From Sinorhizobium meliloti (lineage in GTDB: Bacteria; Pseudomonadota; Alphaproteobacteria; Rhizobiales; Rhizobiaceae), in assembly GCF_035610345.1 (NCBI RefSeq), contig NZ_CP141214.1, positions 280,230-344,229 of the forward strand: a DNA stretch of 64,000 nt. The letters run 5' to 3'. Below the pieces are notes generated by a model, which saw nothing but the letters and a program-made list of their open reading frames with translations, made no database searches and was not told the DNA's origin. Made by a program: the position numbers and the translations under genes. Of this stretch, positions 7,770-49,564 are shown one piece after another (within the stretch, counting starts at the first letter, position 1; each line of letters starts with the position of its first letter).

Positions 7770-9122
7770 TCACGCCGCCTTGCTATGCGTCCGTCCAGAT
7801 TGATCGATATAGGCGTCGAAGGCTGCAGCGGCGGCACGGATAAGGAAGCGTCCCCCATCGCGCAGCCGTATTACGCCGTCGGCGATATCAAGGATGCCGT
7901 CACTTTGTAACATTGCGAGCCTGGTATTGCCGCGGAGCAGCATCTCCGGATCGAAGCCGTGCGCGGTGGCTAGAGCGGGAACATCGACGCCGAAGTCGCA
8001 CATCAGCCGCTCGATGATGCTTGCCCGCAACCTATCCTCCCGCGTCATCCGGTAGCCTTTCACCGTTGCAAGCCGATCCGAGGCAATGTGTTGCGCGTAC
8101 AGGCCCGGCGGCACCTCGTTCTGCACATAGCCGTCGTCCATCCGCCCGATCGCCGACGCACCGAGGCCGATGAGAGTCTCGCAGGCATCGGTCGTGTAAC
8201 CCTGGAAATTTCGGTGCAATCGACCGCTCGCCTGCGCGATCGCCAGGCTGTCGTCCGCGAGGGCGAAATGATCGAGTCCGATGCGGCGGTAGCCGGCGGC
8301 GGCAAGTGTCGCGGCTATGGCCTCGGCCTGGGCGACGCGGCCCTCCGCGTCAGCAAGCGCCTGCTCGTCGATCAGCTTCTGGTGCTTCTTGAACGAGGGG
8401 ATGTGGGCGTATCCGAATACTGCGAAGCGCTCGGGTCCCATCCGGATCGCCGCCTCGGCGGTTGCGATGCAGGATTCGACAGTCTGGTGCGGCAGGCCGT
8501 AGATGAGATCGAAATTGATGCTGTCGACGCCGGACTGACGCAGGCGCGAAACGGCCTCCATCGTCTGCTCTTCGCTCTGGATCCGGTTGATCGCCTTCTG
8601 TACCACCGGATCAAAGCTCTGCACCCCGAGGCTTGCCCTACGGACACCGGCTTCGCCCAGGGCCGTCGCCATTTCCGGCTCGAGGGTTCGCGGGTCTATT
8701 TCCACGGCGATCTCAGCAGTGCTCGCGAACTCGAAATGCTTGCGCAGCAGTGCTATTAGCGCCCGGAACTCCTCCGGCTGCATGATTGTCGGCGTGCCCC
8801 CGCCGAAATGCACGTGGTCGATGCTGAGCGGCGCACACGTGTTTGCCGAGACTATACGGACCTCCTCACGAAGCATGTCGAGATAATCGAGGATTGGCTG
8901 GTCGCGCTGCGTAATTGTGGTATGGCAGCCGCAGTACCAGCACATCGACCGGCAGAAAGGAATGTGGAGGTAGAGCGACGTCGGCTTTCCCGGCGCGATG
9001 GCTGCGAGCCAGTCGCCATAGGTGCTGGCGTCGACGGCGGGCGAAAAGCGGGGCGCCGTCGGATAGCTTGTGTAGCGGGGCAGGCGTGCCTCGCCGTATT
9101 TTGCGACAAGAGCCGGTTGCAT
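7770..9122 (-). CDS. hemN: Oxygen-independent coproporphyrinogen III oxidase (radical SAM)
   Basis: 450 aa. The radical SAM cluster motif CRSMCWYC follows LYLHIPF, as in HemN, and downstream come HFGGGTPT and the FDLIYGLPHQT block. It makes protoporphyrinogen IX without oxygen and so supplies heme for cbb3 oxidase, NorCB and cytochromes under microoxia. The start beginning MQPALVAKYGEARLPRYTSY has AGAAGGA upstream; the frame runs 75 codons further but that part does not look like HemN. No complete FNR-type box was found just upstream, although this gene is FixK/NnrR-controlled in relatives. Confidence 0.96.
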   Translation of the reverse strand: MQPALVAKYGEARLPRYTSYPTAPRFSPAVDASTYGDWLAAIAPGKPTSLYLHIPFCRSMCWYCGCHTTITQRDQPILDYLDMLREEVRIVSANTCAPLSIDHVHFGGGTPTIMQPEEFRALIALLRKHFEFASTAEIAVEIDPRTLEPEMATALGEAGVRRASLGVQSFDPVVQKAINRIQSEEQTMEAVSRLRQSGVDSINFDLIYGLPHQTVESCIATAEAAIRMGPERFAVFGYAHIPSFKKHQKLIDEQALADAEGRVAQAEAIAATLAAAGYRRIGLDHFALADDSLAIAQASGRLHRNFQGYTTDACETLIGLGASAIGRMDDGYVQNEVPPGLYAQHIASDRLATVKGYRMTREDRLRASIIERLMCDFGVDVPALATAHGFDPEMLLRGNTRLAMLQSDGILDIADGVIRLRDGGRFLIRAAAAAFDAYIDQSGRTHSKAA

Positions 9123-10182: not shown

Positions 10183-10398
10183 TTAAGCCCGGATGGCCAG
10201 GATCCGGGCTTCCTTCGAGCCTGGATTGCCGGTGCCCTGCAGGAAATCAGTCGGTCGAGGCAACCTGAGGTAAGGGCAGTGTTCGGCGTACCCCTTCTTT
10301 GCGCCTTCTCGTATGTATGCTGCGGGCTGTACCCGCTTCACGGGACTAAGAGTCTGGCCACTTAGGAAGACCGCCTCCAATTCCGCAGTTGTCTCCAT
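10183..10398 (-). CDS. Possible 71-aa ORF overlapping the end of the pirin gene
   Basis: A 71-aa frame starting METTAELEAVFL overlaps the pirin 3' end by 37 bases. It is mostly hydrophilic, with a YAEHCPYLRLPRP segment, and belongs to no family I recognise. Its last codons and stop lie inside a perfect 10-base inverted repeat (10185-10194 with 10202-10211) that could be a weak terminator for the leftward pirin unit. The ORF may be spurious; the hairpin is certain as sequence. Confidence 0.3.
   Translation of the reverse strand: METTAELEAVFLSGQTLSPVKRVQPAAYIREGAKKGYAEHCPYLRLPRPTDFLQGTGNPGSKEARILAIRA
10185..10211 (-). terminator. Inverted repeat downstream of the pirin gene
   Basis: AAGCCCGGAT and ATCCGGGCTT form a 10-base perfect stem with a 7-base loop. 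No long U tract follows on either strand. Its place after a leftward gene suggests a transcription end or RNA-stabilising hairpin. Confidence 0.5.
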
Positions 10399-11192
10399 TT
10401 CTTCAGCACTCGGATGAGGATGGCTGGTGGGATTTTTCGGTGGTCGCCCACCGTCCCCTTCCGGGCGATCGGTGCGTCAGGATCGATCAAGAATGCGATG
10501 GCCAGACTCCGGGTCTTCGATTCTAGCAATAGCGCCCGATCGGAAAGCAGCAGACCTTGCTCGCCCTCGGCAAACGCCTGGTCCTCCGCAAGCAGCAACC
10601 CGCTGAAAACATAGAAGTAGAGGTTGCGACCTCGCATATGCGGGAATACTAACCTCGCACCTGGCTCGAGCCGGATGTCAAAAAGGTCGATTGTATTACG
10701 AACGTGGAAAGGGGCGTCGCCTTCTTCAGAGCCCACCAGGTGTCGCCAGGTGTTTGGGCTCTGCGAGGGGATCGGCCCGTGCTGTATCCGGGGATCAAGA
10801 TCGACTGCACGCGGCCGGACAAAGATCTGAAGCATGCGCAAGGGCGGATCGGATGAAAACGTCTCTTCAGAATGCCAGAAACTGCGTCCGGCGTTCATCA
10901 CCATCAAATGCCTGCTGTCCGTTACCAGGCGGCCGGTAGTCTTGTCGTCGTGGCGCATGACGCCGTCAGGCACCCACGAAATGATTTCGTCATTCCGGTG
11001 CTCGTGCATGGCGATGAGTCGCCCGGGATCAAGGCTCGATTCCACGATCATGGCAAGCGGACCGTGACCGTGATCCGTTGGCCTCGGTTTCAGCCATCCG
11101 GGCATGTTGACGCGAACGACAAATCCTCCCATGTCGCGCACAATAAACGTGCGATCGCCTTTGAGCAGCACGGCGTCCTCCAGCGTGGACAT
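10362..11192 (-). CDS. Pirin-family (bicupin) protein
   Basis: 276 aa. The N-terminal cupin has the pirin metal-site pattern: HEHRNDEIISWVPDG, GRLVTDSRHLMVMNAG and HSEETFSSDPPLRMLQIFVRP. Pirins are Fe-binding bicupins; some are quercetin dioxygenases, but the substrate here is unknown. The start at MSTLEDAVLL follows TTGGGGTG; an ATG four codons earlier (MIGVMST) is an alternative. The frame continues far upstream but across the NnrR-type box at 11375. The gene is divergent from the DUF2249 cluster and may share that box, which would tie it to NO or nitrite response. Confidence 0.82.
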   Translation of the reverse strand: MSTLEDAVLLKGDRTFIVRDMGGFVVRVNMPGWLKPRPTDHGHGPLAMIVESSLDPGRLIAMHEHRNDEIISWVPDGVMRHDDKTTGRLVTDSRHLMVMNAGRSFWHSEETFSSDPPLRMLQIFVRPRAVDLDPRIQHGPIPSQSPNTWRHLVGSEEGDAPFHVRNTIDLFDIRLEPGARLVFPHMRGRNLYFYVFSGLLLAEDQAFAEGEQGLLLSDRALLLESKTRSLAIAFLIDPDAPIARKGTVGDHRKIPPAILIRVLKKWRQLRNWRRSS

Positions 11193-11374
11193 CACCCCAA
11201 TCATTAGCCGCCCGCCGGAAGGTCCCGTCAATCGAAAGCAACAGCGTTTCGTCGATTGTGGCGTCTGTCGCGGCTGGTTACGGACTTCGTAGCCGAATCC
11301 CTGAATGGTGCCGGACTTGCGTGTCGAGCCGAATTCGAGGCCCGGAACACAGTCCGAGACCGTTTCTCCAATTG

Positions 11375-11390
11375 TTTGCTCCCCGTCAAA
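11375..11390. promoter_or_regulatory. NnrR-type box between the pirin gene and the DUF2249 cluster
   Basis: TTTGCTCCCCGTCAAA differs by one base from the nirK box at 18322-18337. It is 103 bases before the DUF2249 gene on the right and about 180 bases before the pirin gene on the left. The near identity with the nirK box is the best evidence that NnrR controls this uncharacterised cluster. Confidence 0.75.
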
Positions 11391-11493
11391 GTGTGACTGC
11401 CCTCGCAGGGATAGGGTCGGCAAGTTCCGATCCGGTTCCAGCCGCCGCCGCATCGGAATGCACGAGGGGCGGTCGACAGGGAACTCCACCACA

Positions 11494-11775
11494 ATGACGG
11501 AAACACAGCCGAAACCATCCATCGACGTCCGCACCGTCCCGCCGCGCGAGCGTCATCCGCGCATCTTCGAAATGCTCGGAACGCTTCGGGCTGGCAGTTC
11601 TATGCTGATCACCAGCGACCATGATCCGCGCCCGCTCCACTACCAGTTGGAAATGAATTTCCGAGGCGAGTTCGGCTGGGATTATCTGGAAGAGGGGCCC
11701 GAAGTCTGGCGAGTCGAGATCGCCCGTCTGGAGGGCGGTTCCGGCTGCGAATGCTGCTGCGGGTCGGATCATTGA
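11494..11775 (+). CDS. Single DUF2249-domain protein
   Basis: 93 aa. After a short leader it has a DUF2249 domain: VRTVPPRERHPRIFEML, then ITSDHDPRPLHYQLEM and FGWDYLEEGPEVWRVEI. It ends in a Cys-rich tail (ECCCGSDH) that could bind metal. DUF2249 proteins are small, related to the TusA/SirA fold, and often sit near NnrS and RIC genes; their role is not established. The ATG is the last that keeps the whole domain, and upstream sequence contains the NnrR-type box. It heads a rightward cluster with the 12-TM gene. Confidence 0.8.
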   Translation: MTETQPKPSIDVRTVPPRERHPRIFEMLGTLRAGSSMLITSDHDPRPLHYQLEMNFRGEFGWDYLEEGPEVWRVEIARLEGGSGCECCCGSDH

Positions 11776-11812
11776 TCCGGCCGGTGACCCGCTAGCGAAC
11801 ACGGTGATTTAG

Positions 11813-13171
11813 ATGCCAGGAACCACGCTTTCCCCATGGACGATGTCCTATTTCGCCGCCGCCTGTATTTTTCTGGTGGTCGGCCAGGGCGCGATGGTCG
11901 CGGGCTACGGCTACCCGTTCGCCGCCGTCGAAGCCCCGGGCACCTTGGCGGTTGTGCACGTCGTCGCCATCGGCTGGCTCGGCCTGCTGATGGCGGGGGC
12001 GCTGTTGCAGTTTGTGCCGGTGCTGGTTGCAGCGCCCCTTCGTGGCGGGCGGCTCGCACCCCCGGCTTTGGCGCTGCTCATTCCCGGACTTCTTTTGCTC
12101 GTCGGCGGCTTTGCCGCACTTGGCGGTGCTGAAGGAGTTTCGCCAGCCATGTTGCCGTCTGGCGCGCTACTTCTGGCGATGGGTTTTGGTCTCGTTATCA
12201 TCATGCTCGCGACGACGCTCCTTATGGTGCGTCCGCTGCCGCTTCCCGCGCGCTTCGTGGCCGTGGGTCTCGGCGCGCTCATAGCCGCGGTCCTCGCCGG
12301 CGCCGCCTTCACGCTTGTCCTTTCGGGCACGGTCACGAATTACGCGGCGATCGCCCTTCTCCTCAATGGAGTGCCGCTGCACGCGGCGCTTGGCCTTGGA
12401 GGCTGGCTGACCTTCACCGCGATCGGCGTCAGCTATCGGCTGCTGCCGATGTTCATGCTTGCGCCGGATGACACGCGAGCCACAAGCAGGGCTGTCTGGT
12501 GGACGGGCGCCGCGGCACTGGCGATCGTCGTTGCCAGCATCGTCTCGATTGCAGTGGACAGCGACGGCATGGAAGGGGCGAGGAGCGTCGCAACATTTCT
12601 GGCCGTCTCCGCCGCCGTCCTCTATTCCGCCGACGTCTTGCGCCTGTTCCATGAGCGCCGCCGCAAAATCGTGGAACTCAACATCCGCGCGAGCTATGCG
12701 GCCTTTGCTGCACTTTTCGCTTCCGTCGTCATGTTCGCCCTGCCAATCACACGGGCCGCGGCCGGCGAACGAGCCGCGGCTCTCGTCTACCTTTTCGTCT
12801 TTGGTTGGTTGACCGGCCTCGGCCTCGCGCAGCTCTACAAGATCATTCCGTTCCTGACCTGGCTCGAATGCTATGGCCCCGTTCTCGGGCGGAGCGCAGT
12901 GCCGCGTGTTCAGGACTTGGTCGAGGAGAAACGCGCAAGTATTTGGTTTTTTGTCTACTATTCGGCGGTGATTGCGGCTACGCTTTCGCTCTTTGCCGAA
13001 AGTCCGGCGGCGTTCCGCGTCGCCACGCTAGCGCAACTCTGCGCGACGGTCGGCCTGATGGTGGAGCTCGTCCGCGCCCGCATGCTCTCCTACGTCGCAG
13101 CGCCCCTGCGCCTTCCCGCGGGCGCGCCAAGGCCGCATCTCTTTCTCCCCATCTCTAGACCACAGGAGTAA
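11813..13171 (+). CDS. Polytopic membrane protein, heme-copper oxidase I/NnrS-like
   Basis: 452 aa with about 12 membrane helices. Two helices carry His residues in settings like heme ligands of oxidase subunit I: VVHVVAIGWLGLLMAGAL near residue 45, and HAALGLGGWLTFTAIG near residue 190, followed by YRLLPMF. It lacks the full set of catalytic His seen in NorB or FixN, so it is not a complete oxidase. I think it is a heme-binding membrane protein of the broad NnrS/oxidase-like group. It lies 37 bases after the DUF2249 gene and 3 bases before the double-DUF2249 gene, so the three are one operon. Confidence 0.65.
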   Translation: MPGTTLSPWTMSYFAAACIFLVVGQGAMVAGYGYPFAAVEAPGTLAVVHVVAIGWLGLLMAGALLQFVPVLVAAPLRGGRLAPPALALLIPGLLLLVGGFAALGGAEGVSPAMLPSGALLLAMGFGLVIIMLATTLLMVRPLPLPARFVAVGLGALIAAVLAGAAFTLVLSGTVTNYAAIALLLNGVPLHAALGLGGWLTFTAIGVSYRLLPMFMLAPDDTRATSRAVWWTGAAALAIVVASIVSIAVDSDGMEGARSVATFLAVSAAVLYSADVLRLFHERRRKIVELNIRASYAAFAALFASVVMFALPITRAAAGERAAALVYLFVFGWLTGLGLAQLYKIIPFLTWLECYGPVLGRSAVPRVQDLVEEKRASIWFFVYYSAVIAATLSLFAESPAAFRVATLAQLCATVGLMVELVRARMLSYVAAPLRLPAGAPRPHLFLPISRPQE

Positions 13172-13174
13172 TCA

Positions 13175-13714
13175 ATGACTATCGAAACCCAGAACCCAGC
13201 ACCAAGAGAATTCGACGTCCGACCTATACTGAGGAGCGGCGGCGAGCCGTTCCAAGCGATCATGGAGGCGGTGAACGGGTTGAGACCAGCCCAAGCGTTG
13301 CGGCTTCTTGCTCCCTTTCGTCCGCAGCCGCTATTCAAAGTCATGGAGGGCCGCGGCTTCAGCTACCAGGCACAGGAGATACAAGACGGCGACTGGGAAA
13401 TCTTGTTCACGCCAAAGGCAGCAGGAGCCTCCGTCGAGGTCTCTGCAGATGCCGACAATCCGGACTCCTGGCCCGATCCCGTCGAAAACCTCGACCTGAC
13501 CGAGCTCGATCCCCCGGAGCCCATGGTCCGCATCCTCGCGGCTGCAGAGCGGCTGCAGCCGGGCGAGGTGCTGTTCGCGCTTCTCTCCCGTGAGCCCATC
13601 TTCCTCTTCCCGGAGCTTTCGAATCGGGGGCACCAGTGGGCGGGCAATTTCGACGAAACACGAACCACTTTCCGTATCTTCGTCCGCATCGGTAATAAGG
13701 CGCCGAAGCTATGA
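13175..13714 (+). CDS. Protein with two DUF2249 domains
   Basis: 179 aa. The first DUF2249 copy (about residues 14-85) reads [34 protein letters not shown] and WEILFTPK. The second (about 107-178) reads [34 protein letters not shown] and [10 protein letters not shown]. It starts three bases after the membrane-protein stop and overlaps the next gene by four bases, so the genes are translationally coupled. The tandem form next to a single-domain form suggests a complex or a relay, perhaps of sulfur or metal; this is inference. No catalytic residue assignment is possible by eye. Confidence 0.8.
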
Positions 13715-14002
13715 ACGAACGTGGGAACGCGACTACCTGCGATGCAATCCGCGATGCACTGCGCATGATCATCGATCCTGAACTTGGCCGCAACATAGTC
13801 GATCTCGGTCTTATCTACGATGTATTCGTCGAGGAAGGCGGCATCGCCCATGTGACGATGACAACGACCACGAAGCTGTCCGGCCAGCGAATATCTAAAG
13901 GAGGCAGTGCGCAACTGCGTCTGGTATGTGCCGGGTGGTGAGTACGCAGAAGTCCGGCTAACCTACGAGCCGGCTTGGACGCCGGATATGATGGCCGGCT
14001 GA
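13711..14002 (+). pseudogene. Frameshifted MIP18/PaaD-like (DUF59) Fe-S assembly gene
   Basis: The frame starts [18 protein letters not shown] and runs through [17 protein letters not shown] and [10 protein letters not shown], the DUF59 core. In the first frame the protein then goes off into unrelated residues and stops at 13941. In another frame the expected family sequence resumes at once: [20 protein letters not shown], then EVRLTYEPAWTPDMMAG, ending at 14000-14002. The loss of about two bases after the TTTTK codons explains this. The Cys of the CPA motif, needed in the family, is lost from the truncated product. It overlaps the previous gene by four bases, so it was the last gene of the DUF2249 operon. 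Confidence 0.8.
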
Positions 14003-14472
14003 CCGAGGCGAGTGCTAATGACGACGTCGATAACGGGTATCTACGGAAGGATGCAGAGGACGGTGAGATCGTACATCTCATCGCCCAGCGTCGTTTCGAC
14101 TTCTACGCTGATCTCCGAAGCCTCGGCGATGGCGGACTTTCCGGTGCCGCATGGTCACGGCGACCAGGTCAGGCGTGGTGGCGCCCCGGATCCTCGGGAC
14201 AAGGCCAACCTGCAGTGCAGGCGAGGGACATCCACCTCCCCGACCTCCCATCGCCGCGCCGAAGGTGCGAAGCCGGAACTCGGCCGGAAACCTGAAGTGC
14301 AATTCAAGCCTGCTCTGCGTCCAACCGCTGCGCGCAGGGAAAGAGGACATTGCTGTGCATGTCGTCAAAGGGTCACGGCAATGGCCGGACTATAGGCTCT
14401 CGGGACCGGCGGCGGCTCCAAAGTGTTAGCCAGCATGGCCGCAACTCTCCGGCGCCCGTCGCGGAGAACCGC
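14003..14472. other. Non-coding or decayed stretch
   Basis: About 470 bases between two broken genes. Open frames on both strands are short and match nothing I know. I see no box or repeat. It is likely decayed DNA at an old insertion or deletion boundary. Confidence 0.4.
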
Positions 14473-14738
14473 ATGTCCAGAATGAACCGCAAATCCGGCG
14501 CCAGGAGTGACCGGACCAATCTCTATTCCGAGGTCATCGACAAGATCATCACCGAGCTGGAGGCCGGGCGCGTGCCCTGGGTCCAACCATGGGGCACGGC
14601 GGCGGCGAAGGCACCGCTCGGCCTTACGAAGAACGCCTCGACCGGCCGGACCTATTCCGGGATCAACGTGCTGCTCTTGTGGGGCGCGGTAATCGAACGC
14701 GGCTTCTCCAGAGCTGGCTCACCTTCCGCCAGGCGCTG
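14473..14738 (+). pseudogene. ArdC-type antirestriction gene fragment (N-terminal part)
   Basis: From MSRMNRKSG the frame gives DKIITELEAGRVPWVQPWG and TGRTYSGINVLLLWGAVIE, the conserved start of ArdC/DUF1738 antirestriction proteins, which are spread by conjugative plasmids. A frameshift follows near 14705, and the next family block, SWLTFRQAL, is found in another frame. The gene then ends at about 14738, where DUF2493-family sequence begins. The zinc-peptidase-like C-terminal part is absent. This is a relic, not a functional gene. Confidence 0.75.
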
Positions 14739-15329
14739 TCGTCGAGCTCGAGCGGCTGATCGAGGTCGGCAAGAGCCTCCTTGAACGCCGCGACAGCCTG
14801 GAGGTCTTCCGCGAAAGTGCCGCCGAGCATTATCTACGCACCACCGGCACGCCCTGGTCACCGCGTACCGGATCACGGGTCAACCCGCGCGCTGACGTCG
14901 GCAATGGTCGACAGCCGCGACTACATTGCTGCCCGGAAACGCGCCGACGCACAAGTGCTTCTGCCCGATGGACCGAAGGTCGCCCTCACCGGCGGGCTCG
15001 ACTTCATCGACCACAGGCTGATCTGGGACAAGCTCGACCAGGTTCATGCCAAACACCCCGACATGGTGCTGATGCACGGCAAGTCACCGAAAGGCGCCGA
15101 GAAGATCGCCGCCCGCTGGGCCGATCACCGCAACGTGCCCCAGATCGGCTTCGCGCCCGACTGGACGAAGCACGGCCGCGCTGCACTTTCAAGCGCAACG
15201 ACCAGATGCTCGATGTTTTGCCAATCGGCGTCATGGTCTTTCCCGGCTCCGGCATTCAGGAGAACCTCGCCGACAAGGCCAGGAAGCTAGGCACCCCCGG
15301 TCTGGAAATTCGGCAGCGGCGGCACGTGA
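14738..15329 (+). pseudogene. DUF2493 (SLOG-like) plasmid gene fragment, frameshifted
   Basis: The stretch begins mid-protein with VVELERLIEVGKSLLERRDS, then in another frame gives LPDGPKVALTGGLDFIDH, KHPDMVLMHGKSPKGAEKIA and VPQIGFAPDW, the DUF2493 core. After a further shift near 15185 it gives FKRNDQMLDVLPIGVMVFPG and finally VWKFGSGGT before a stop at 15327-15329. Intact proteins of this family are common on Rhizobium and Agrobacterium plasmids and are usually near 300 aa. Here the N-terminal third is gone, and it is joined directly to the ArdC fragment, so a deletion fused two plasmid genes. Confidence 0.78.
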
Positions 15330-15486
15330 GCGCCGCTTTCCCGTGCTAGATTGTCAAGACGTTGAGAAACGTCGCCGGACTTGCGAACGCTGCGCCATTC
15401 CGGATCGCTGGCGTCCGTCGCGGATTGTTTAAGGAGCGTGCTATCATACTTCAGTGATTTCGGCCGAGTGATGAGGGTCCGCGACG

Positions 15487-16383
15487 GTGTTTACCGGATT
15501 TGAAGCAGAGACCGTACGTACTGCGGAATGCACGTACTTCGTTCGAGTCGCTGGCTCGGGACCTCCGCTCTTGCTCCTTCACGGCTTTCCGGAAACCCAC
15601 CTCATGTGGAGAGACGTTGCGCCGATCCTCGCTGAGACTTTCACAGTCGTATGCGCAGACCTGCGCGGTTATGGACAGAGCGGATGCCCGGCATCTTCAC
15701 CTGACCATCTCCCCTATTCGAAGCGCGTGATGGCGTCCGACCTCGTGCACGCGATGGAGCAGTTGGGGTATGAGCGATTCGCTGTCGCCGGACACGATCG
15801 CGGCGGTCGGGTTGGCTACCGAATGGCGCTCGATCATCCCGGCAGTGTCTCGCGGCTCGCTGTTCTCGATATCCTACCGACGGCCACCGTATGGGATCGT
15901 GCCGACGTTCGTCTGACGCTCGGGTTCTGGCCGTGGAGCCTACTGGCGCAACCCGAACCCTTGCCAGAACGTCTCGTCGACGGTGCGGCCGAGGCGATTA
16001 TTGCGAACGCCATCGATCAGTGGGGGTCGCGAAACGAAGCCTTTCCATCCGAAGTCCGCGAGGCCTATGTCGACGCGCTGCGAGATCCTAGCCACGTCCA
16101 TGCAATCTGCGAAGAGTATCGCGCCGCCGCGAGCATCGACCGCGATCATGACGCTGCGGACGAGAAGGTGGGAAACAAGATCTCATGCCCTGTACTCGCG
16201 CTTTGGAGCGCCGAGGGAGGGCTGCAGAATTGGTACGCTGACGAAGGCGGCCCCTTGAAGCTTTGGCAGACATGGGCCGATAACGTGAGCGGCGGTCCTG
16301 TCGCCGGGGGGCACTTCTTTCCGGAGGAATTTCCCCGGGATACCGCAGTGGCTTTGCAGGAGTTTATGGAGCACGGCCACTAG
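15487..16383 (+). CDS. Alpha/beta hydrolase, haloacetate dehalogenase-like
   Basis: 298 aa. It has the oxyanion-hole motif HGFPETHLMW, DLRGYGQS, the nucleophile elbow GHDRGGRVGYRMALDHP (Asp nucleophile, two Arg), and a late GGHFFPEE with the catalytic His. These match haloacetate (fluoroacetate) dehalogenases more closely than general epoxide hydrolases. In the characterised fluoroacetate enzyme a His-Trp pair helps hold the halide; here the corresponding stretch reads FWPWSLLAQPEP, with Pro in place of that His. So the halide site is altered and the substrate uncertain. The start codon is GTG. It stands alone among plasmid relics and may be a transferred gene. Confidence 0.8.
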   Translation: MFTGFEAETVRTAECTYFVRVAGSGPPLLLLHGFPETHLMWRDVAPILAETFTVVCADLRGYGQSGCPASSPDHLPYSKRVMASDLVHAMEQLGYERFAVAGHDRGGRVGYRMALDHPGSVSRLAVLDILPTATVWDRADVRLTLGFWPWSLLAQPEPLPERLVDGAAEAIIANAIDQWGSRNEAFPSEVREAYVDALRDPSHVHAICEEYRAAASIDRDHDAADEKVGNKISCPVLALWSAEGGLQNWYADEGGPLKLWQTWADNVSGGPVAGGHFFPEEFPRDTAVALQEFMEHGH

Positions 16384-16613
16384 GTTGCCGCCGAAAACGC
16401 GCCGATGTCTTGCTTACGACCTCCCACCTGTCGCGAAGTTATGCATCTCGGCATCCTGGTCTGGAAGTTCGGAAGCGGCGGCGCATGAGCGCCGCCGTCA
16501 CCTTATCGGTCGCGCCGAGACGGGGCGGATTTCCACTCCGGGCGTTTCGGCCATATGTTCAATGCGGTGGTGGTAGGCGCGGCCTTTCGATCATTCGTCA
16601 CGGAGGCACCACC

Positions 16614-16954: not shown

Positions 16955-18166
16955 CTACTGCACTACCCGGCGCTTGCGCGCCAGGATCGGGCCATACTCA
17001 ATGCAGAACAGCGCAAAGGCCAGGATCCACGCGCTTCCGGAGACGGCATAGAGGCTCGCTGCAACGACGGGAAGTATTTCCGCCAGCGGGCGCAACAGCG
17101 CCGACGACACGACCGCGGCGTAGGAGGCGGTCGTCAATCGCGATGCGGTAAGCGGATATCCCGTGTGGCCGCGGCTCGCACGGGTCATGACCGCTAGCAT
17201 CATCGCGGCGATGGCGCCCACCGTGAGCAAATGCATGACCGAACGTTCTTCGACGAAGCCGAGCGCGCCGATGCCGATTGCGGCGAAGCCCAGGGGAACG
17301 AAGGCATAGGCGACGTGCAGTATGACCAGCAGCATTTCCGGCCAGGTAGACCAACCGCGCCAGCGGGCGAGTCGGACGGTGTGCAGCAGTGCGGCGGCAA
17401 AAGCCGCCACCGCCGTGAACGAATGGTCGGGAACAAGCGTCCATGCGCCAAGCGCCGCGATGCCCGCAAGAATGGCGACTGTGTCGAATTGGTTGTAGGG
17501 AACCGGAAATTCGGTCCGGCCGGCACGGTTCAGCCAGTTGCGGGTGAAACTCGGCAAGATCCGACCGCCGATGATGGTGACGAGTACCACATAGGCGGAA
17601 ATGCCGAGGCGCGTCGCGATATGGACATGGTCTCCCGTGACCACGGCGAAATGAAAGCAGGCGTTGGCGAGCGACAGTGCGAGGAGACCGCCCAGCACCT
17701 TCAGATCCTTCCATTTGCGACCGGCGATTACCTCGCGGGCGCAGATCAAGAGCAGCGCCGGGAGGAAGAGGCCGTCTATAGCCGCGGCGGGCGGGATGCC
17801 GATCATATCCGGGGAAAGCAGCGCAGCGCGTCCCGCCAGCCAAAGCGCGAACAGTCCGGCGAGCGGCCAGCCGGAGACGGGGAGGCGGCCCGTCCAGTTC
17901 GGTACCGCGGTCAGCAAGAATCCGGCAAGGACAGCCGGGGCGAAGCCAAACAGCATCTCGTGCGCATGCCAGGCATGAGCCCCATAGCTGCCGGCGACTT
18001 CGAGATGACCCGCGAGGGCCGCAACCCAGAGGGTCATGGCGACGACCGCCCAAACAGCGGCGCCGAGAAAGAAGGGTCTGAATCCGTATGAAAAGAGCAC
18101 CGGGCCCGTGCGGGCGAGGCCCCGCGGCACGTAGCCTTCCCGCTTGGCCACCTTTGATCCATTCAT
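16955..18166 (-). CDS. nnrS: NnrS, heme-copper membrane protein
   Basis: 403 aa and about 12 membrane helices. It shows NnrS marks: FSYGFRPFFLGAAVWA at the N-terminus, AWHAHEMLFGFAPAVLAGFL with the likely metal-binding His, TAVPNWTGR, and GGRILPSFTRNWLNR. NnrS is a heme- and copper-containing protein that protects against NO-related metabolic stress. It is divergent from nirK, and an NnrR-type box lies in the shared region closer to nnrS. A second, different member of the family lies at 48338. Confidence 0.95.
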   Translation of the reverse strand: MNGSKVAKREGYVPRGLARTGPVLFSYGFRPFFLGAAVWAVVAMTLWVAALAGHLEVAGSYGAHAWHAHEMLFGFAPAVLAGFLLTAVPNWTGRLPVSGWPLAGLFALWLAGRAALLSPDMIGIPPAAAIDGLFLPALLLICAREVIAGRKWKDLKVLGGLLALSLANACFHFAVVTGDHVHIATRLGISAYVVLVTIIGGRILPSFTRNWLNRAGRTEFPVPYNQFDTVAILAGIAALGAWTLVPDHSFTAVAAFAAALLHTVRLARWRGWSTWPEMLLVILHVAYAFVPLGFAAIGIGALGFVEERSVMHLLTVGAIAAMMLAVMTRASRGHTGYPLTASRLTTASYAAVVSSALLRPLAEILPVVAASLYAVSGSAWILAFALFCIEYGPILARKRRVVQ

Positions 18167-18321: not shown

Positions 18322-18337
18322 TTTGCTCCCCCTCAAA
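18322..18337. promoter_or_regulatory. NnrR-type box upstream of nirK
   Basis: TTTGCTCCCCCTCAAA lies 74 bases before nirK. It is nearly identical to the box before the DUF2249 cluster at 11375. Confidence 0.78.
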
Positions 18338-18410: not shown

Positions 18411-19541
18411 ATGTCTGAGCAATTCCAGATGACACGTCGCAGCATGCTGGCCGGCGCCGCGATCGCAGGCGCACTGACGCCGCTGGTTGGCGCCGTATCG
18501 GCCCATGCGGAAGAGGCGGTAGCCAAGGTGGCCTCCCTCGACGTCGCGTCGCTGCCGCGCGTCAAGGTAGATCTCGTCAAACCGCCCTTTGTCCACGCCC
18601 ATACGCAAAAGGCCGAAGGCGGGCCGAAGGTCGTCGAGTTCACGCTGACGATAGAGGAAAAGAAGATCGTCATCGACGAGCAGGGTACGGAGCTCCATGC
18701 CATGACCTTCAACGGTTCGGTTCCCGGTCCGCTGATGGTCGTGCACCAGGACGACTATGTCGAGCTGACGCTCATCAACGCGGACACGAACACGCTGCAG
18801 CACAATATCGACTTCCATTCGGCAACCGGCGCGCTGGGGGGCGGCGCACTGACGGTCGTCAATCCGGGCGAGACCACGGTGCTGCGCTTCAAGGCGACCA
18901 AGGCGGGCGTCTTCGTCTACCATTGTGCACCTCCCGGCATGGTTCCGTGGCACGTCACTTCGGGGATGAACGGTGCGATCATGGTGCTGCCGCGCGAAGG
19001 ACTAACCGACGGCAAGGGCAAGCCGCTTACCTATGACAAGGTCTACTATGTCGGTGAGCAGGACTTCTACGTGCCGCGCGACGCAAGCGGCAAGTTCAAG
19101 AAGTATGAAAGCGTCGGGGACGCCCATGCCGATACGCTCGAAGTGATGCGCACGCTTACCCCGTCCCACATTGTCTTCAACGGCGCGGTCGGGGCGCTCA
19201 CCGGCGACAACGCGCTCAAGGCCGCCGTCGGCGAGAAAGTCTTGATCGTCCATTCGCAGGCGAACCGCGACACGCGCCCGCACCTGATCGGCGGCCATGG
19301 CGACTATGTCTGGGCGACCGGCAAGTTCCGCAATCCTCCCGAGGTCGATCAGGAGACCTGGTTCATACCCGGCGGCACGGCGGGCGCTGCCTTCTACACC
19401 TTCGAGCAGCCCGGAATCTATGCCTACGTCAACCACAACCTGATCGAGGCGTTCGAGCTCGGCGCTGCCGCTCATTTCGCCGTTACCGGCGATTGGAACG
19501 ACGACCTGATGACCTCGCTCCTTGCTCCATCGGGTACCTGA
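18411..19541 (+). CDS. nirK: NirK, copper nitrite reductase
   Basis: 376 aa, periplasmic, reduces nitrite to NO. The N-terminus [15 protein letters not shown] is a Tat-type signal. Type 1 copper ligands are His131, Cys172, His181 and Met186; type 2 ligands include His136 and His171, with catalytic Asp134. These fall in [10 protein letters not shown] and [19 protein letters not shown]. The second cupredoxin domain is complete and length is normal. It starts after GGAGAGG. nirV follows after a strong hairpin. The probable electron donor is the pseudoazurin encoded at 21518. Confidence 0.98.
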
Positions 19542-20712: not shown

Positions 20713-21408
20713 ATGAAGATCGACCGGAGTGTCGTACGGTCGCTTGCCCTGTTCGACAGGATGAGCGACGCGGATCTGGACAGGATGCTCGCCCATGCGA
20801 CGGCAAGGCGCGTGCCCCAAGGTGACGCTGTTTTCGAGCAAGGTCAGAGAGCCACAAGCTTTTTCCTGCTCCTGCACGGGCGGCTGAAGGTGACCCAGGT
20901 CACTGAGGACGGTCAGCAGATCATCGTGCGCGTCGTCCATCCGGGTGACCTCTTCGGATTTGCAAAGGCGCTGCAGCGTTCGGATTATCCCGGTACTGCT
21001 ACGGCCGTTACGGAAAGTCTTGCTCTTTCCTGGCCTACGGATCTCTGGCCGCAATTCGTCGAGCAGAATCCGCATCTAGCCGTCAGCACCATGCAGACGA
21101 TCGGCCAGCGCCTCGAAGAGGCACACACGCGGATTCGCGAGATGTCGACCCAGGAGGTGGAGAGGCGCGTCGCCCATGCGGTGCTGCGCCTTTCGCGGCA
21201 GGCGGGCAAGCAGGAAAAAGGCGGCGTCCGCATAGACTTTCCGATCTCCCGCCAGGACATAGCTGAAATGACCGGAACCACACTGCATACGGTGTCGCGC
21301 ATTCTCAGCGCCTGGGAGCAGAAGGGGCTGGTCGAGGGCGGGCGGCAAAAGCTCATCGTCTGCGACCTGCCAGGCTTGACGGCGCTCGCAGACGGCGGGC
21401 GCGACTAG
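20713..21408 (+). CDS. nnrR: NnrR, Crp/Fnr regulator of denitrification
   Basis: 231 aa. N-terminal cyclic-nucleotide-like beta-roll (about 15-125), a long dimer helix, and a C-terminal winged helix with FPISRQDIAEMTGTTLHTVSRILSAWE as the recognition element. It lacks the N-terminal Cys cluster of Fnr, as NnrR does. It responds to NO (probably through heme in relatives) and activates nir, nor and nnr genes. It sits between nirV and pseudoazurin. The TTTG-N8-CAAA boxes listed across this window are its predicted sites. No good box was found before its own start. Confidence 0.93.
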   Translation: MKIDRSVVRSLALFDRMSDADLDRMLAHATARRVPQGDAVFEQGQRATSFFLLLHGRLKVTQVTEDGQQIIVRVVHPGDLFGFAKALQRSDYPGTATAVTESLALSWPTDLWPQFVEQNPHLAVSTMQTIGQRLEEAHTRIREMSTQEVERRVAHAVLRLSRQAGKQEKGGVRIDFPISRQDIAEMTGTTLHTVSRILSAWEQKGLVEGGRQKLIVCDLPGLTALADGGRD

Positions 21409-27690: not shown

Positions 27691-27784
27691 GGTGCCACGG
27701 GCCGGCCTCTGACAATTCTCGCAATAGTTTTGCGGTCCCCACCGCGTGCGTCAGTCAGCGATTAGAGAGGGTTGGAGCCCAATC

Positions 27785-29404
27785 ATGAAACACACAGTCG
27801 AGATGGTCGTGCTTGCCGTGGGCGCCTTCCTGGCGCTGGTCGGAGCCGGCCTTGCGCAGGACCGCCAGTTCGGCGCGCACATGTGGGTGCTGTTCTTCGT
27901 GCTGCTCGCCGGCACCCTGGTGCTCATGCGCCGCGTTGACTTCCGTCCGGCTATCGCGGGTCATCCCGGCCGTCGAAACGAATACTTTGACGAGGTCGTG
28001 AAGTACGGCGTAATCGCGACGGTATTCTGGGGCGTGGTCGGCTTTCTCGTCGGTGTGGTCGTTGCCCTTCAGCTCGCCTTTCCCGATCTCAACGTGGAGC
28101 CTTGGTTCAACTTCGGCCGGGTACGGCCGCTTCACACGTCCGCCGTCATTTTCGCCTTCGGGGGCAACGCGCTTATCGCAACTTCGTTTTATGTCGTGCA
28201 GCGTACCAGCCGCGCACGGCTCTTCGGTGGGGACCTCGGTTGGTTCGTCTTCTGGGGATACCAGCTCTTTATCGTCCTCGCGGCTACCGGCTACCTGCTC
28301 GGAATTACCCAGAGTCGCGAGTATGCGGAGCCGGAATGGTACGTCGACCTCTGGCTCACCATCGTGTGGATCGCCTACCTCGTCGCCTTCCTCGGCACGG
28401 TCCTGAAGCGCCAGGAACCGCATATCTATGTGGCGAACTGGTTCTACCTCGCCTTCATCGTCACCATCGCGATGCTGCACGTCGTCAACAATCTGGCGGT
28501 GCCCGTCTCCTTCCTTGGTTCGAAGAGCTACTCCGCATTTTCCGGCGTGCAAGACGCGCTGACGCAGTGGTGGTACGGGCACAACGCGGTGGGCTTCTTT
28601 CTCACGGCGGGCTTCCTGGCGATGATGTACTACTTCATCCCGAAACAGGTGAACCGCCCTGTCTATTCCTACCGTCTGTCGATCATCCACTTCTGGGCGA
28701 TCATCTTCATGTACATCTGGGCCGGTCCTCACCACCTGCATTACACGGCACTGCCCGACTGGGCGCAAACGCTCGGCATGGTCTTCTCCATCATGCTCTG
28801 GATGCCCTCGTGGGGCGGCATGATCAACGGCCTGATGACGCTGTCTGGCGCCTGGGACAAAATCCGGACCGATCCGGTGGTCCGCATGATGGTGATGGCC
28901 GTCGCCTTCTACGGCATGGCGACCTTCGAAGGCCCGATGATGTCGATTAAGACAGTCAACTCGCTCAGCCACTACACTGACTGGACCATCGGCCACGTCC
29001 ATTCCGGCGCGCTCGGGTGGAACGGACTGATCACTTTCGGCGCGATCTACTATCTCGTGCCGAAGCTGTGGAACCGCGAACGGCTCTATAGCGTGCGCAT
29101 GGTCAACTGGCACTTCTGGCTCGCCACCCTCGGCATCGTCGTCTACGCCGCTGTTATGTGGGTCGCCGGTATTCAGCAAGGTTTGATGTGGCGCGAATAC
29201 GACGACCAAGGCTTCCTCGTGTACTCCTTCGCGGAAACGGTCGCGGCCATGTTCCCCTACTATGTCATGCGCGCCGCCGGCGGCGCCCTGTTTCTCGCCG
29301 GCGCGCTCCTCATGGCCTTCAACGTAACCATGACGATACTCGGGCGCGTCCGCGATGAAGAACCGATCTTTGGTGCTGTACCGCTGCCGGCGCCTGCAGA
29401 ATAG
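27785..29404 (+). CDS. fixN: FixN (CcoN), catalytic subunit of cbb3 oxidase, first copy
   Basis: 539 aa and 12-14 membrane helices. It reads like S. meliloti FixN. Conserved blocks: [25 protein letters not shown] (low-spin heme His), [19 protein letters not shown] (CuB ligand His), [16 protein letters not shown] (two CuB His), [19 protein letters not shown] (heme His pair). It reduces oxygen to water with high affinity and pumps protons. The frame opens 13 codons earlier with no ribosome signal. Member of fixNOQP, driven by the FixK box upstream. Confidence 0.98.
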
Positions 29405-36973: not shown

Positions 36974-38629
36974 ATGGGACAGTTGACGACGCGAGAACGG
37001 GATCGAGCCGCGGCAATATTGCTCGTCCTGGCTATTGTGGGCATAGCCATGGCGGCAGCAGGCCGGTTCGACCCGCTCGGAGTACATGGCGCGATTGTCC
37101 TCTTATACAGCCTCGGCCTGCTGTATGTTATAATGTCGAGCTCGTTCGGACCTCCGCCGGATCCGTCGCGGATCTCCCGCTACTACGACGATCCCATCAA
37201 GGTCGGCGTCTGGTTCACGTTGTTTTGGGCGATCTTCGGCATGTTCGTCGGAGTCTGGGCCGCCGCGCAGCTCGCCTGGCCTAGCCTCAATTTCGATACC
37301 GCCTGGGCGAGCTTCGGGCGGATCAGGCCGGCCCACACGACCGGGGTGATTTTCGGGTTCGGCGGCAACGCCCTGATCGCAACCTCGTTCCACGTGGTTC
37401 AAAGGACCTCGCGCGCCCGGCTGGCGGACCAACTCAGCCCATGGTTCGTGCTGTTCGGCTACAATCTCTTCTGCATTCTGGCCGTGACCGGCTATTTCAT
37501 GGGCGTCACGCAGTCGAAGGAATATGCCGAGGCAGAATGGTATGCCGACCTCTGGCTCGTCATCGTCTGGGTCACCTATTTCATCCTCTACATCCGGACG
37601 CTGGCGCGGCGCAGGGAGCCTCACATCTACGTCGCCAACTGGTACTACATGGCCTTCATCGTGGTCGTGGCGATCCTGCACATCATCAACAACCTGACAG
37701 TTCCGGTCTCCCTGGGGCATGCCAAGAGCTACACGATCTGGGCGGGCGTGCAGGACTCGATGGTGCAGTGGTGGTACGGGCACAATGCGGTCGCTTTCTT
37801 CCTGACGGCAGGCTTCCTGGCGATGCTCTATTACTACCTGCCGAAGCGTGCCGAGCGGCCCATCTTTTCCTATCGGCTGTCTATCCTCAGCTTTTGGGGC
37901 ATAACCTTCTTCTACATGTGGGCCGGCTCGCACCACCTTCATTATACGGCCCTGCCGCATTGGGTGCAGAACCTCGGCATGACATTCTCTGTGATGCTGC
38001 TTGTTCCCTCATGGGCATCGGCCGGCAACGCGCTGCTGACCCTGAACGGCGCCTGGCACAAGGTTCGCGACGACGCGACGCTGCGCTTCATTATGATGGC
38101 CGCCTTCTTTTACGGCCTGTCGACCTTCGAGGGATCTTTCCTCGCGGTCCGTCCCGTCAATTCGCTTTCGCACTACACCGACTGGACAGTCGGCCATGTC
38201 CACGCAGGGGCCCTGGGCTGGGTGGCGTTGATCACCTACGGTTCGCTCTACACGCTCGTGCCGGCGATCTGGAAGCGCGAGAGGATGTATTCGGCAGCCC
38301 TCGTTGAGGTCCATTTCTGGCTCGCCTTCGCCGGCACCGTGATCTACGTCTTCGCAATGTGGAACTCGGGCATCATTCAGGGCCTGATGTGGCGGACCTA
38401 TACCGGGGAGGGGACGCTCGCCTATTCCTTCGTGGATTCCCTGGTGGCGATGTACCCCTACTACATTGCACGCGCCTTCGGCGGCCTGCTGTTCCTGATC
38501 GGAGCCGTTGTCGCCACCTACAACATCTGGATGACCGTTCGCGGCGTCCCTGTGCTGGCTGAACGGCACGACGACGTTCCGGTCGCCGCGCCATTGCCGA
38601 AAGGCGCGGCAACGGGACCGGCGGAGTAG
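36974..38629 (+). CDS. fixN: FixN (CcoN), second, divergent copy
   Basis: 551 aa. All oxidase marks are present: [55 protein letters not shown] and [17 protein letters not shown]. It differs from the first copy throughout, and has an extra N-terminal part ([17 protein letters not shown], two hydrophobic segments) and a longer C-terminal tail ([17 protein letters not shown]). This resembles the fixN3-type oxidase of S. meliloti. It is followed at short distance by its own fixO, Q and P. A high-affinity terminal oxidase is likely but expression conditions may differ from the first copy. Confidence 0.95.
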
Positions 38630-47541: not shown

Positions 47542-47666
47542 GACGTGCGGACCAAAATTCTGCACAAGGAATGTCGAATTCAGGGACGCGAATTCGGCGC
47601 GATACTGGCTTCGGCCAGCGGAATCCAAGCACACACCTGGGAAGAAACACGGCAAAGGAAAAGCTC

Positions 47667-48341
47667 ATGACGGAAATAAGCCTCGACAACACCGTGTCAG
47701 CGATCGCAGCAGAGCTGCCCGGAGCCGCGGAACTATTCCGGGGACATGAAATCAGCTTCTGTTGCGGCGGCGACGTCCGACTCTCGGAAGCCGCCGTCAA
47801 GGCGGGTCTCGCACCGTCGGCGCTGCTTGCAGAGTTGCAAGCCCTCGTAGTGGCCGCGAGACGAGATGCACCTGAGCAGACATCGGACCTCATCGGACAC
47901 ATCCTGGACAGATATCACCAGACGCACCGTGCGGAGCTCGCCTGGCTCATCCCGCTCGCCCAGAAGGTGGAGCGGGTGCACGGAGACCACCCCTCGGCAC
48001 CGATCGGGCTCTCCCAGGTTCTTGAGCACCTGCGGGACGACCTTGAGAGCCACATGATGAAAGAAGAGCAGGTCCTCTTCCCGATGATGCAACGCGGCGG
48101 CAGTGCGGTGATCGCCCATCCGATCATGCGGATGCGAGACGAGCACGAGGAGGAGGCGGAGCATCTCCGGACGATCGAACATGTGACCCATGGGCTTTCG
48201 CTGCCGCCAGGCGCCTGCGGCTCGTGGACCGCGCTTTATACGGGACTGCGCAAGTTCACCGACGACTTGATCGCGCACATGCATCTCGAGAACGCCGTGC
48301 TGTTTCCGCGCTTCGAAGACCAGTCCCAGGCGGCCCTTTGA
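47667..48341 (+). CDS. dnrN: RIC/DnrN, di-iron repair of iron centres
   Basis: 224 aa. N-terminal ScdA_N domain ending GAAELFRGHEISFCCGG (Cys32, Cys33), then a hemerythrin-like bundle with paired His and Glu: RYHQTHRAELAWL, HLRDDLESHMMKEEQVLFP, MRDEHEEEAEHL and HMHLENAVLFP. RIC proteins repair Fe-S clusters after NO or oxidative damage. Upstream there is a strong NnrR-type box. The stop overlaps the next gene (TTGA), so the two are coupled. A longer upstream reading frame lacks a ribosome site. Confidence 0.92.
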   Translation: MTEISLDNTVSAIAAELPGAAELFRGHEISFCCGGDVRLSEAAVKAGLAPSALLAELQALVVAARRDAPEQTSDLIGHILDRYHQTHRAELAWLIPLAQKVERVHGDHPSAPIGLSQVLEHLRDDLESHMMKEEQVLFPMMQRGGSAVIAHPIMRMRDEHEEEAEHLRTIEHVTHGLSLPPGACGSWTALYTGLRKFTDDLIAHMHLENAVLFPRFEDQSQAAL

Positions 48342-49564
48342 CTTACGAGTCGACCGATTGGGGTTCCATCTGGCGGGCGCCATACCGACCCCCGTTTTTT
48401 CTCGCGGGACTATGGGCGCTTGTCGTGCCCATGGTCTGGCTCCTCCCGCAACAACTCGCACCGGACAGGGTCGAGTGGCACAGCCGCGAACTTGTGTTCG
48501 GCATGGGGGGAGCTGCGGCAGGGGGCTATCTCCTGTCGGCCCTGCCAGCCTGGACGAAGAGGAGGGCGGTCTCGCCGGCCGCCACTATGATTGCAACCTG
48601 GCTCTGGTGCGTCGCCCGTCTTACCGGCGCGCTCTCGGACCATTTGCCCTTTATCGCTGCCGCGACCGGGGTGTCCGCCTATTTTGCGTTCCTGACTGCG
48701 ATGTTGATGCATGGCATTGTTGTCTCCGGGGCGTGGGATCGGTGCTGGGCGCCGCTTGGGACGGGCGCGCTTGGCATAAATGCCTTGGTTAGCATCGGCG
48801 ATGGCCCGGGTCCCAAGCCGCTGCTTTATGCCGTGCTGATCGTTTTAATAGGCGGACGCGCCGTGCCCGCCTTCACGCGATCCTGGCTGGACCGGAGAGG
48901 AAGAGGGAAGCTGCTCTACACTCGGCGGAATCTTTCCCACCTGGCGATAGCGGGCACTCTCCTCGCAGCCTGTCTTCATGGCGCTTGGCCGCCCACGCTG
49001 CCAGGTCTCCTGCTGTTGTTTTCGGGCGCTGTGCTGCTGTGGCAGATGAGCGCATGGCGGAGCCTCTGGACCCGCCGCTATCCGGCCTTGTTCATCCTGC
49101 ATGTTGCCTTCGCCTGGACACCGACGGCGCTCATTCTCGGCGGTCTTTCAGCTATTATACCCGACCAGGTTCCAGCAGATGACGCCCTGCACGCGCTGAC
49201 GATGGGCGCGATGAGCACGATGATCGCCGCCTTGATGATGCGGCCAGCCATGGTCCGCGACGGCGAGTCCCTGATCCTCGGTCGGGCCATGGCGGTCGCG
49301 TTCTCACTCGTGTCGCTCTCGGCGCTGCTGCGGATTTCCGGCGGCTGGTTGAATGAAAACGCTTTCGACACCGTCGCTGCTGCCGCAATCTGTTGGATGG
49401 CGGGGTGGACGCTCTTCCTCGTCGCATATTTTCCGGCCATGAGCGGTCCTGTTCCTAGACCCGCGTTCAGCGCCGCACTCGGCAATAAGGTCGAGCGTGG
49501 CAACGGCATCACGGCCGCGGAAGGGGTTTCTATGTCCGCAGAGCACCAAGGTGCCGGTGCTTGA
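48338..49564 (+). CDS. NnrS-family membrane protein, second copy
   Basis: 408 aa from a TTG that overlaps the ric stop. About 12 membrane helices: YRPPFFLAGLWALVVPMVW, then EWHSRELVFGMGGAAAGGYLL, LSALPAWTKR, VLIGGRAVPAFTRSWLDRRG. This is the NnrS pattern but distant from the copy at 16955. In many proteobacteria NnrS follows RIC, so this pair forms an NO-protection operon. The frame extends upstream inside ric, so the TTG start is the only reasonable choice. Confidence 0.88.
   Translation: MTYESTDWGSIWRAPYRPPFFLAGLWALVVPMVWLLPQQLAPDRVEWHSRELVFGMGGAAAGGYLLSALPAWTKRRAVSPAATMIATWLWCVARLTGALSDHLPFIAAATGVSAYFAFLTAMLMHGIVVSGAWDRCWAPLGTGALGINALVSIGDGPGPKPLLYAVLIVLIGGRAVPAFTRSWLDRRGRGKLLYTRRNLSHLAIAGTLLAACLHGAWPPTLPGLLLLFSGAVLLWQMSAWRSLWTRRYPALFILHVAFAWTPTALILGGLSAIIPDQVPADDALHALTMGAMSTMIAALMMRPAMVRDGESLILGRAMAVAFSLVSLSALLRISGGWLNENAFDTVAAAAICWMAGWTLFLVAYFPAMSGPVPRPAFSAALGNKVERGNGITAAEGVSMSAEHQGAGA

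Follow-up and report, generated by a model that had tools for sequence, protein, structure and literature searches.

Examination of a 64,000-nucleotide (nt) stretch of Sinorhizobium meliloti contig NZ_CP141214.1 (hereafter the window) revealed a cluster of four genes on the plus strand, preceded by an NnrR/FNR-type box. The box is followed by a gene for a single-domain DUF2249 protein, an open reading frame (ORF) coding for a protein with 12 transmembrane (TM) helices, a gene for a double-domain DUF2249 protein and a DUF59/MIP18 gene (Table 1). The intergenic spacing along the four genes amounts to 37 nt, 3 nt and a 4-nt overlap, which suggests that they constitute one operon. The contig carrying the window measures 997 kb in a genome of 6.63 Mb, and the region is approximately 91% identical to megaplasmids of S. 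meliloti and S. medicae; among 45 matching plasmid records, 37 are 90-95% identical.

An earlier note on this DNA had placed four coupled genes between hemN and nnrS, in a cluster reaching position 14002. The gene order and tight spacing were confirmed, but a pirin-like gene separates hemN from the box, about 2.9 kb of other ORFs precede nnrS, and the MIP18 ORF is open to 13941 only, the remnant of its tail continuing to 14002 in another frame. Among the tabulated loci, a pirin gene adjoining the module is labelled only in the window, L041, L116 and L117; this gene may have inserted recently between the box and hemN. The interval from the module to nnrS (14100-16400) contains an ORF with a YspA-like SLOG domain and an alpha/beta hydrolase gene; the stretch of S. 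meliloti ml56 matching this interval is only about 1.1 kb long.

The module box, TTTGCTCCCCGTCAAA, differs by one mismatch from the nirK box, as the earlier note had stated. The latter begins 89 nt 5' of the nirK ATG. When up to three mismatches were allowed, three sites were found in the window (0.41 expected), and three sites were obtained in none of 100 shuffles.

Table 1. Features of the cluster and its surroundings, in window coordinates (aa, amino acids)
Feature	Position	Strand	Remarks
NnrR/FNR-type box TTTGCTCCCCGTCAAA	11375..11390	+	centre about 111 nt 5' of first start codon
Single DUF2249 protein, DrpA-like, 93 aa	11494..11775	+	Pfam PF10006, E 7.5e-29
12-TM heme-copper-oxidase-fold protein, 452 aa	11813..13171	+	fold from predicted model; conserved His H49 and H190 only
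Double DUF2249 protein, DrpB-like without DUF1858, 179 aa	13175..13714	+	DUF2249, E 6.3e-34
DUF59/MIP18 gene, frameshifted	13711..13941	+	PF01883, 6.8e-12, profile 2-44/73
nirK box (context)	18322..18337	+	one mismatch with module box
hemN (context)	7770..9122	-	Radical_SAM and HemN_C
Pirin-like gene (context)	10362..11213	-	divergent from module
nnrS (context)	16955..18166	-	PF05940, 1.4e-112
nirK (context)	18411..19541	+	synteny with annotated nirK
Crp/Fnr-family regulator in nnrR position (context)	20713..21408	+	
RIC-type protein, ScdA_N and hemerythrin (context)	47571..48341	+	same island

The window also contains norCB and two nnrS genes, and the Crp/Fnr-family gene occupies the position of nnrR. 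The RIC-type iron-centre repair protein is encoded directly 5' of the second NnrS gene (47571-49564 for the pair). Two genes coding for cbb3 oxidase subunit I (CcoN-type) lie within about 11 kb (27746-29404 and 36974-38629).

Conservation of the cluster and of its upstream box

A search of genome contigs with a profile of the 12-TM protein yielded 342 confirmed relatives. Locus counts out of 80 refer to the best 80 of these 342, so that near kin are over-represented. The co-occurrence assumed in the earlier note is conserved: the full order DUF2249, 12-TM, DUF2249x2, DUF59 is found in 63/80 loci, all but the first gene in 13 and neither the first nor the last gene in 4. S. meliloti Rm1021 (L116) has the complete set on pSymA. 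Of the denitrification markers searched, one or more are present in 74 loci (nnrS 60, nirK 53, nor 44, nosZ 12) and none in the other 6. A recurring layout is norECBQD - hemN - module - nnrS - nirK - nirV - Crp/Fnr gene.

The 12-TM gene was detected in 10 of 199 genomes of the order. Eight of these ten have nirK, versus 38/199 overall (Fisher p 3e-5), and five have norB, versus 34/199 (p 0.015). The nirK count comprises matches over the cut-off; G560 is a ninth 12-TM genome with a nearby NirK-labelled ORF, and in G770, likewise a carrier of the 12-TM gene, the norB and nirK searches gave no match. Since it is absent from 30/38 nirK genomes and 29/34 norB genomes, the 12-TM gene travels with denitrification yet is accessory. 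In a sample of 398 genomes from the phylum, 36 encode related proteins; the four-gene set was not seen in the 17 distant loci of this sample that were opened (L120-L136), four of which have a single DUF2249 nearby. The 12-TM gene of G560 (C88:97636-98985; L011, L141) has an internal TAG, with no DUF2249x2 labelled beside it, and is an apparent case of decay. L137, L138, L104, L105, L111, L112 and L114 encode, within the module or beside it, a further conserved protein of roughly 88 aa. The two tested showed no Pfam family and two seeds matched no other tabulated locus; this protein is a possible fifth component of the module.

The box was then scored as TTG-N8-CAA within 350 nt upstream. It precedes the module in 70/79 loci (one locus was omitted, its sequence lacking), namely 57/62 in which DUF2249 comes first and 13/17 in which the 12-TM gene does. 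L044 was scored boxless in this count; boxes are present there if another start codon is taken. In the same loci the box lies upstream of nirK (52/53), norC (41/41), hemN (43/43) and nnrS (52/59), or 188/196 pooled, versus 3/134 for the control genes norQ (0/42), norD (3/41) and nirV (0/51). These counts support the view that the module box behaves like those of nirK, norC, hemN and nnrS. Some boxes may serve both hemN and the module, which are divergent neighbours in many loci. The alphaproteobacterial NnrR motif was published as ctTTGcgnnnncgCAAag (PMC1274295); the outer TTTG/CAAA of the module box agree with it and the inner bases agree in part. From these boxes we infer that the module is co-regulated with the denitrification genes by NnrR. 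The summary of E. meliloti NnrR targets in PMC6710368 lists nirK, norC, azu1, hemN, nnrU and nnrS, and does not name the module genes.

Rrf2-family genes of the NsrR/RirA group were found in 13/80 loci: 6/9 boxless loci versus 7/70 boxed ones (p 4e-4), the gene of L105, one of the six, being 9 kb away. Of eight Rrf2 proteins scanned with NCBIfam, five are nearest to NsrR and three to RirA, all below the cut-off, and a gamma-type NsrR palindrome was found upstream of none of the scanned loci. The distribution hints at a regulator swap toward NsrR in boxless loci.

Component proteins and the Thermus counterpart

The single DUF2249 protein has a Cys-rich C-terminal tail and a DHDPxPL motif. The second domain of the double DUF2249 protein has a predicted TusA fold and lacks the TusA catalytic Cys, which sits in a CPxP motif; TusA-type sulphur transfer is therefore unlikely. 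Pfam detected no DUF1858 at its N-terminus, unlike in Thermus DrpB, and no further DUF2249 match was found elsewhere in the genome.

The 452-aa 12-TM protein matched no Pfam or NCBIfam family. Its predicted model shows the 12-TM subunit-I fold of the heme-copper oxidase (HCO) superfamily, closest to CcoN and NorB. Two His residues, H49 and H190, are invariant in the family, and the heme-ligand-like His recorded in the earlier note thus fall in a predicted heme-protein fold. Profile comparisons were weak with NorB (0.8%) and CcoN (13%, TM1-4 onto TM9-12), and NnrS was not matched (no PF05940 hit; hhalign probability 2.2%). The placement of H49 on TM2 and H190 on TM6 consequently follows helix order in the model rather than residue alignment. 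Catalytic HCO and nitric oxide (NO) reductase subunits I carry six metal-binding His on TM2, 6, 7 and 10. Only H49 and H190 are conserved here, and the usual binuclear centre is absent because the helices equivalent to TM7 and TM10 have no conserved His. The protein may bind one heme at most, via H49/H190. Pei et al. reportedly described in 2014 a group of HCOH proteins, including NnrS, with the HCO fold and two conserved His capable of holding a single heme; two conserved His are said to occur in most three-unit HCOH members. The 12-TM protein shows the HCO fold in its predicted model and has two conserved His.

The MIP18 ORF of the window encodes 76 aa. Compared with 6/6 intact relatives it has a 2-nt gap located at the conserved Cys motif, and a full PF01883 domain with the conserved Cys was not found in this copy. 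Intact rows have D22-P23-E24 (DPE) and C57-P58-A59 (GCPA motif) in 84/84 cases, the ml56 copy being counted twice. The frameshift may reflect either genuine gene loss or a mistake in the assembly. PF01883 occurs in three other places of the genome, and in this strain the MIP18 step has probably either disappeared or been taken over by one of these genes. SufT proteins, relatives of MIP18, serve iron-sulphur (Fe-S) maturation (PMC4982691, PMC9045647).

In Thermus, paired single and double DUF2249 proteins are known from published work as DrpA/DrpB (PMC6282519). On the Thermus thermophilus NAR1 megaplasmid, the genes run in the order nar, DrpA, DrpB, a transposase, a hypothetical protein, a protoglobin, a 383-aa hypothetical protein and MIP18. 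The gene row of AA2-2 and SNM7-6 is the same minus the transposase; that of T. brockianus TF21, where most genes are annotated as hypothetical, was matched by position and length. The row is directly 3' of nar in NAR1 only: intervening genes are present in TF21, and no nar gene lies in the stretch shown of AA2-2 and SNM7-6. In SNM7-6 it adjoins a Crp/Fnr gene, feoAB and a hemerythrin gene. The 383-aa protein of AA2-2, 99.0% identical in NAR1, is a 12-TM homologue (BLASTP 8e-13, 27% identity; hhalign 99.9%). A 12-TM homologue and a MIP18 gene are found 3' of DrpAB in 4/4 Thermus plasmids examined, out of 15 Thermus plasmid records matching the first DUF2249 protein. DrpA is 52.6% identical to that protein over 76 aa, AA2-2 DrpB 34% to the double DUF2249 protein and AA2-2 MIP18 49% to its S. 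meliloti counterpart. Both the DrpAB paper (PMC6282519) and a NAR1 review of 2020 present drpAB as an operon of two genes that senses nitrate; the terms globin, metal-sulfur, heme-copper and DUF59 are absent from the main text of both. In the Thermus plasmid records H180-H183, one of them from T. thermophilus HB8, the match is confined to the final third of the 383-aa protein, falls under a MIP18 annotation and looks like a remnant after cluster loss.

The non-Thermus contexts were picked from plasmid hits and are examples, not a census. In Paracoccus sp. TOH the 12-TM, DUF2249, MIP18 and nirK genes occur together with ric nearby. In Haloarcula a four-domain DUF2249 protein adjoins ric, as does one of similar length in Halorussus. 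The Defluviimonas gene is near nifU, a P-loop NTPase and an Rrf2 gene, and that of Azospirillum near nnrS, a hemerythrin gene and nos genes, with no MIP18 in view. In Haloferax mediterranei four DUF2249 genes are reported to rise under denitrification, one of them fused to an iron-sulfur carrier P-loop NTPase (PMC11218638). These examples support a recurrence of DUF2249 genes beside Fe-S or iron genes: ric, nifU, P-loop NTPase and, in one Thermus strain, feoAB. In Agrobacterium, where 17 records match the first DUF2249 protein, the four plasmids examined all keep both DUF2249 genes in place with 12-TM and MIP18 missing, and no Agrobacterium is among the 111 plasmid records matching the 12-TM protein. 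From this joint absence the 12-TM and MIP18 genes seem to go together.

Proposed function and comparison with known systems

We propose, with moderate confidence, that the operon encodes an NnrR-regulon, membrane-anchored module keeping iron centres, probably Fe-S, working during N-oxide production. Fe-S maintenance is suggested by the MIP18 gene, the gene neighbours and the enzyme activities of the Thermus mutants. The HCO-fold protein would bind no more than one heme (H49/H190), may sense or scavenge NO or pass electrons, and would expose a conserved surface to the cytoplasm, on which the TusA-like double DUF2249 protein would dock as an adaptor. The MIP18 protein would pass iron-sulphur units to damaged or new clients such as nitrate reductase. 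A bolder and distinctly more doubtful proposal is that Thermus DrpAB and the operon of alphaproteobacteria represent a single system, a new class of N-oxide-induced, membrane-anchored iron-centre repair complex in which the HCO fold would have turned into a one-heme sensor or electron relay, with Cys-less TusA-like adaptors and cluster delivery by MIP18.

Several observations weigh against the iron-centre role. Pro replaces the Cys of the TusA CPxP motif in 88/88 aligned DUF2249 rows, the MIP18 gene of the window is broken and none was found in 4/80 modules, Agrobacterium retains the DUF2249 pair alone, and only 8/38 nirK genomes and 5/34 norB genomes of the order have the 12-TM gene. In Thermus, single drpA or drpB mutants grow anaerobically like controls, and the drpA mutant has similar nitrate reductase activity under anoxia with nitrate (PMC6282519). 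DrpB is cytoplasmic and also at the membrane, and DrpA was located in the periplasm (PMC6282519), which makes the cytoplasmic adaptor role unfit for the latter. Moreover, because a transposase intervenes, the NAR1 mutant data are silent on the genes after drpAB.

The same mutants bear on a signalling circuit, in which the DUF2249 pair and the heme-type membrane protein would sense nitrate or NO and tune the Crp/Fnr-type regulators that control denitrification, as has been put forward for DrpA/DrpB. We consider this a serious possibility, albeit an improbable one. The loss of nitrate dependence of the nar and dnr promoters in drpAB mutants and the periplasmic DrpA (PMC6282519) suit a sensor, and the nitrate-independent nar transcription counts against our preferred role; the protoglobin gene within the Thermus module and the missing TusA Cys, which suits binding over an enzymatic role, also fit sensing. 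On the other hand, a sensor leaves without a role the MIP18 gene, which is present in 76/80 modules, several neighbours are iron-centre genes, and the mutants hold an inactive or weakly active nitrate reductase: the protein is present in the double mutant with 90 U versus 900 U in the wild type, and single drpA or drpB mutants in air have NarG with no activity (PMC6282519). The DrpAB authors note themselves that maturation may be limiting (PMC6282519).

Two further explanations centre on single proteins. The 12-TM protein might itself remove or buffer NO, with the other genes serving only to mature or protect it, which we regard as unlikely. Removal or buffering of NO is the role proposed for NnrS; the predicted fold closest to CcoN and NorB and the nnrS gene of 60/80 loci would agree with it, but two conserved His do not make the usual binuclear centre and the window is already provided with norCB and two nnrS. 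Less probable still is a factor that assembles a single denitrification enzyme, acting on the iron site of cNor or the copper of NirK. The frequency of nirK and nor genes around the module (53 and 44 of 80 loci) is what such a factor would predict, yet nirK over the cut-off is found in 8/10 and norB in 5/10 of the 12-TM genomes of the order, 6/80 loci have no searched marker, and in Thermus NAR1 the module stands 3' of nar.

The earlier note called the cluster an undescribed system, which is too strong: PMC11218638 credits the link between DUF2249 and heme-copper oxidases to Pei et al. 2014, and the pair itself has been studied as DrpA/DrpB (PMC6282519). The parts and the DUF2249/heme-copper link are already known; what is added here, within the literature searched, is the module as a joined unit, the occurrence of its NnrR-type box in relatives, the oxidase fold with two His and the match to Thermus. 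Three loose ends are joined in this way, namely DUF2249 in denitrifiers, a two-His oxidase relative without a Pfam family and the "nitrate sensor" DrpAB of Thermus. If they belong to one module, the function of DUF2249 can be tested in either of two laboratory strains, and the sensor model of DrpAB has to be revisited so as to take in the downstream genes. The proposed role, if true, would bear on how denitrifiers, nodule bacteria included, sustain Fe-S enzymes while making NO.

Compared with known systems, the DUF2249 proteins of the module differ from TusA sulfurtransferases by the Pro at the position of the CPxP Cys. The MIP18 protein resembles SufT/MIP18 proteins in PF01883 and in the DPE and GCPA motifs kept in intact rows, and differs in its link to DUF2249 and a membrane protein and in the frameshift of this strain. 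The 12-TM family departs from the catalytic subunits NorB and CcoN in having no conserved His on the TM7/TM10 equivalents. It resembles HCOH proteins in its predicted 12-TM fold, two conserved His and an N-oxide gene context, whereas it gives no significant profile match to NnrS, one of these proteins. Finally, the module and DrpA/DrpB both bring single and double DUF2249 genes together within a cluster for N-oxide respiration. They differ in gene order, the 12-TM gene sitting between the DUF2249 genes in S. meliloti, while Thermus has an extra DUF1858 on DrpB, 4-TM and protoglobin genes in between, a DrpA of 72 aa without the Cys tail, and DnrS/DnrT, not NnrR, as regulators.

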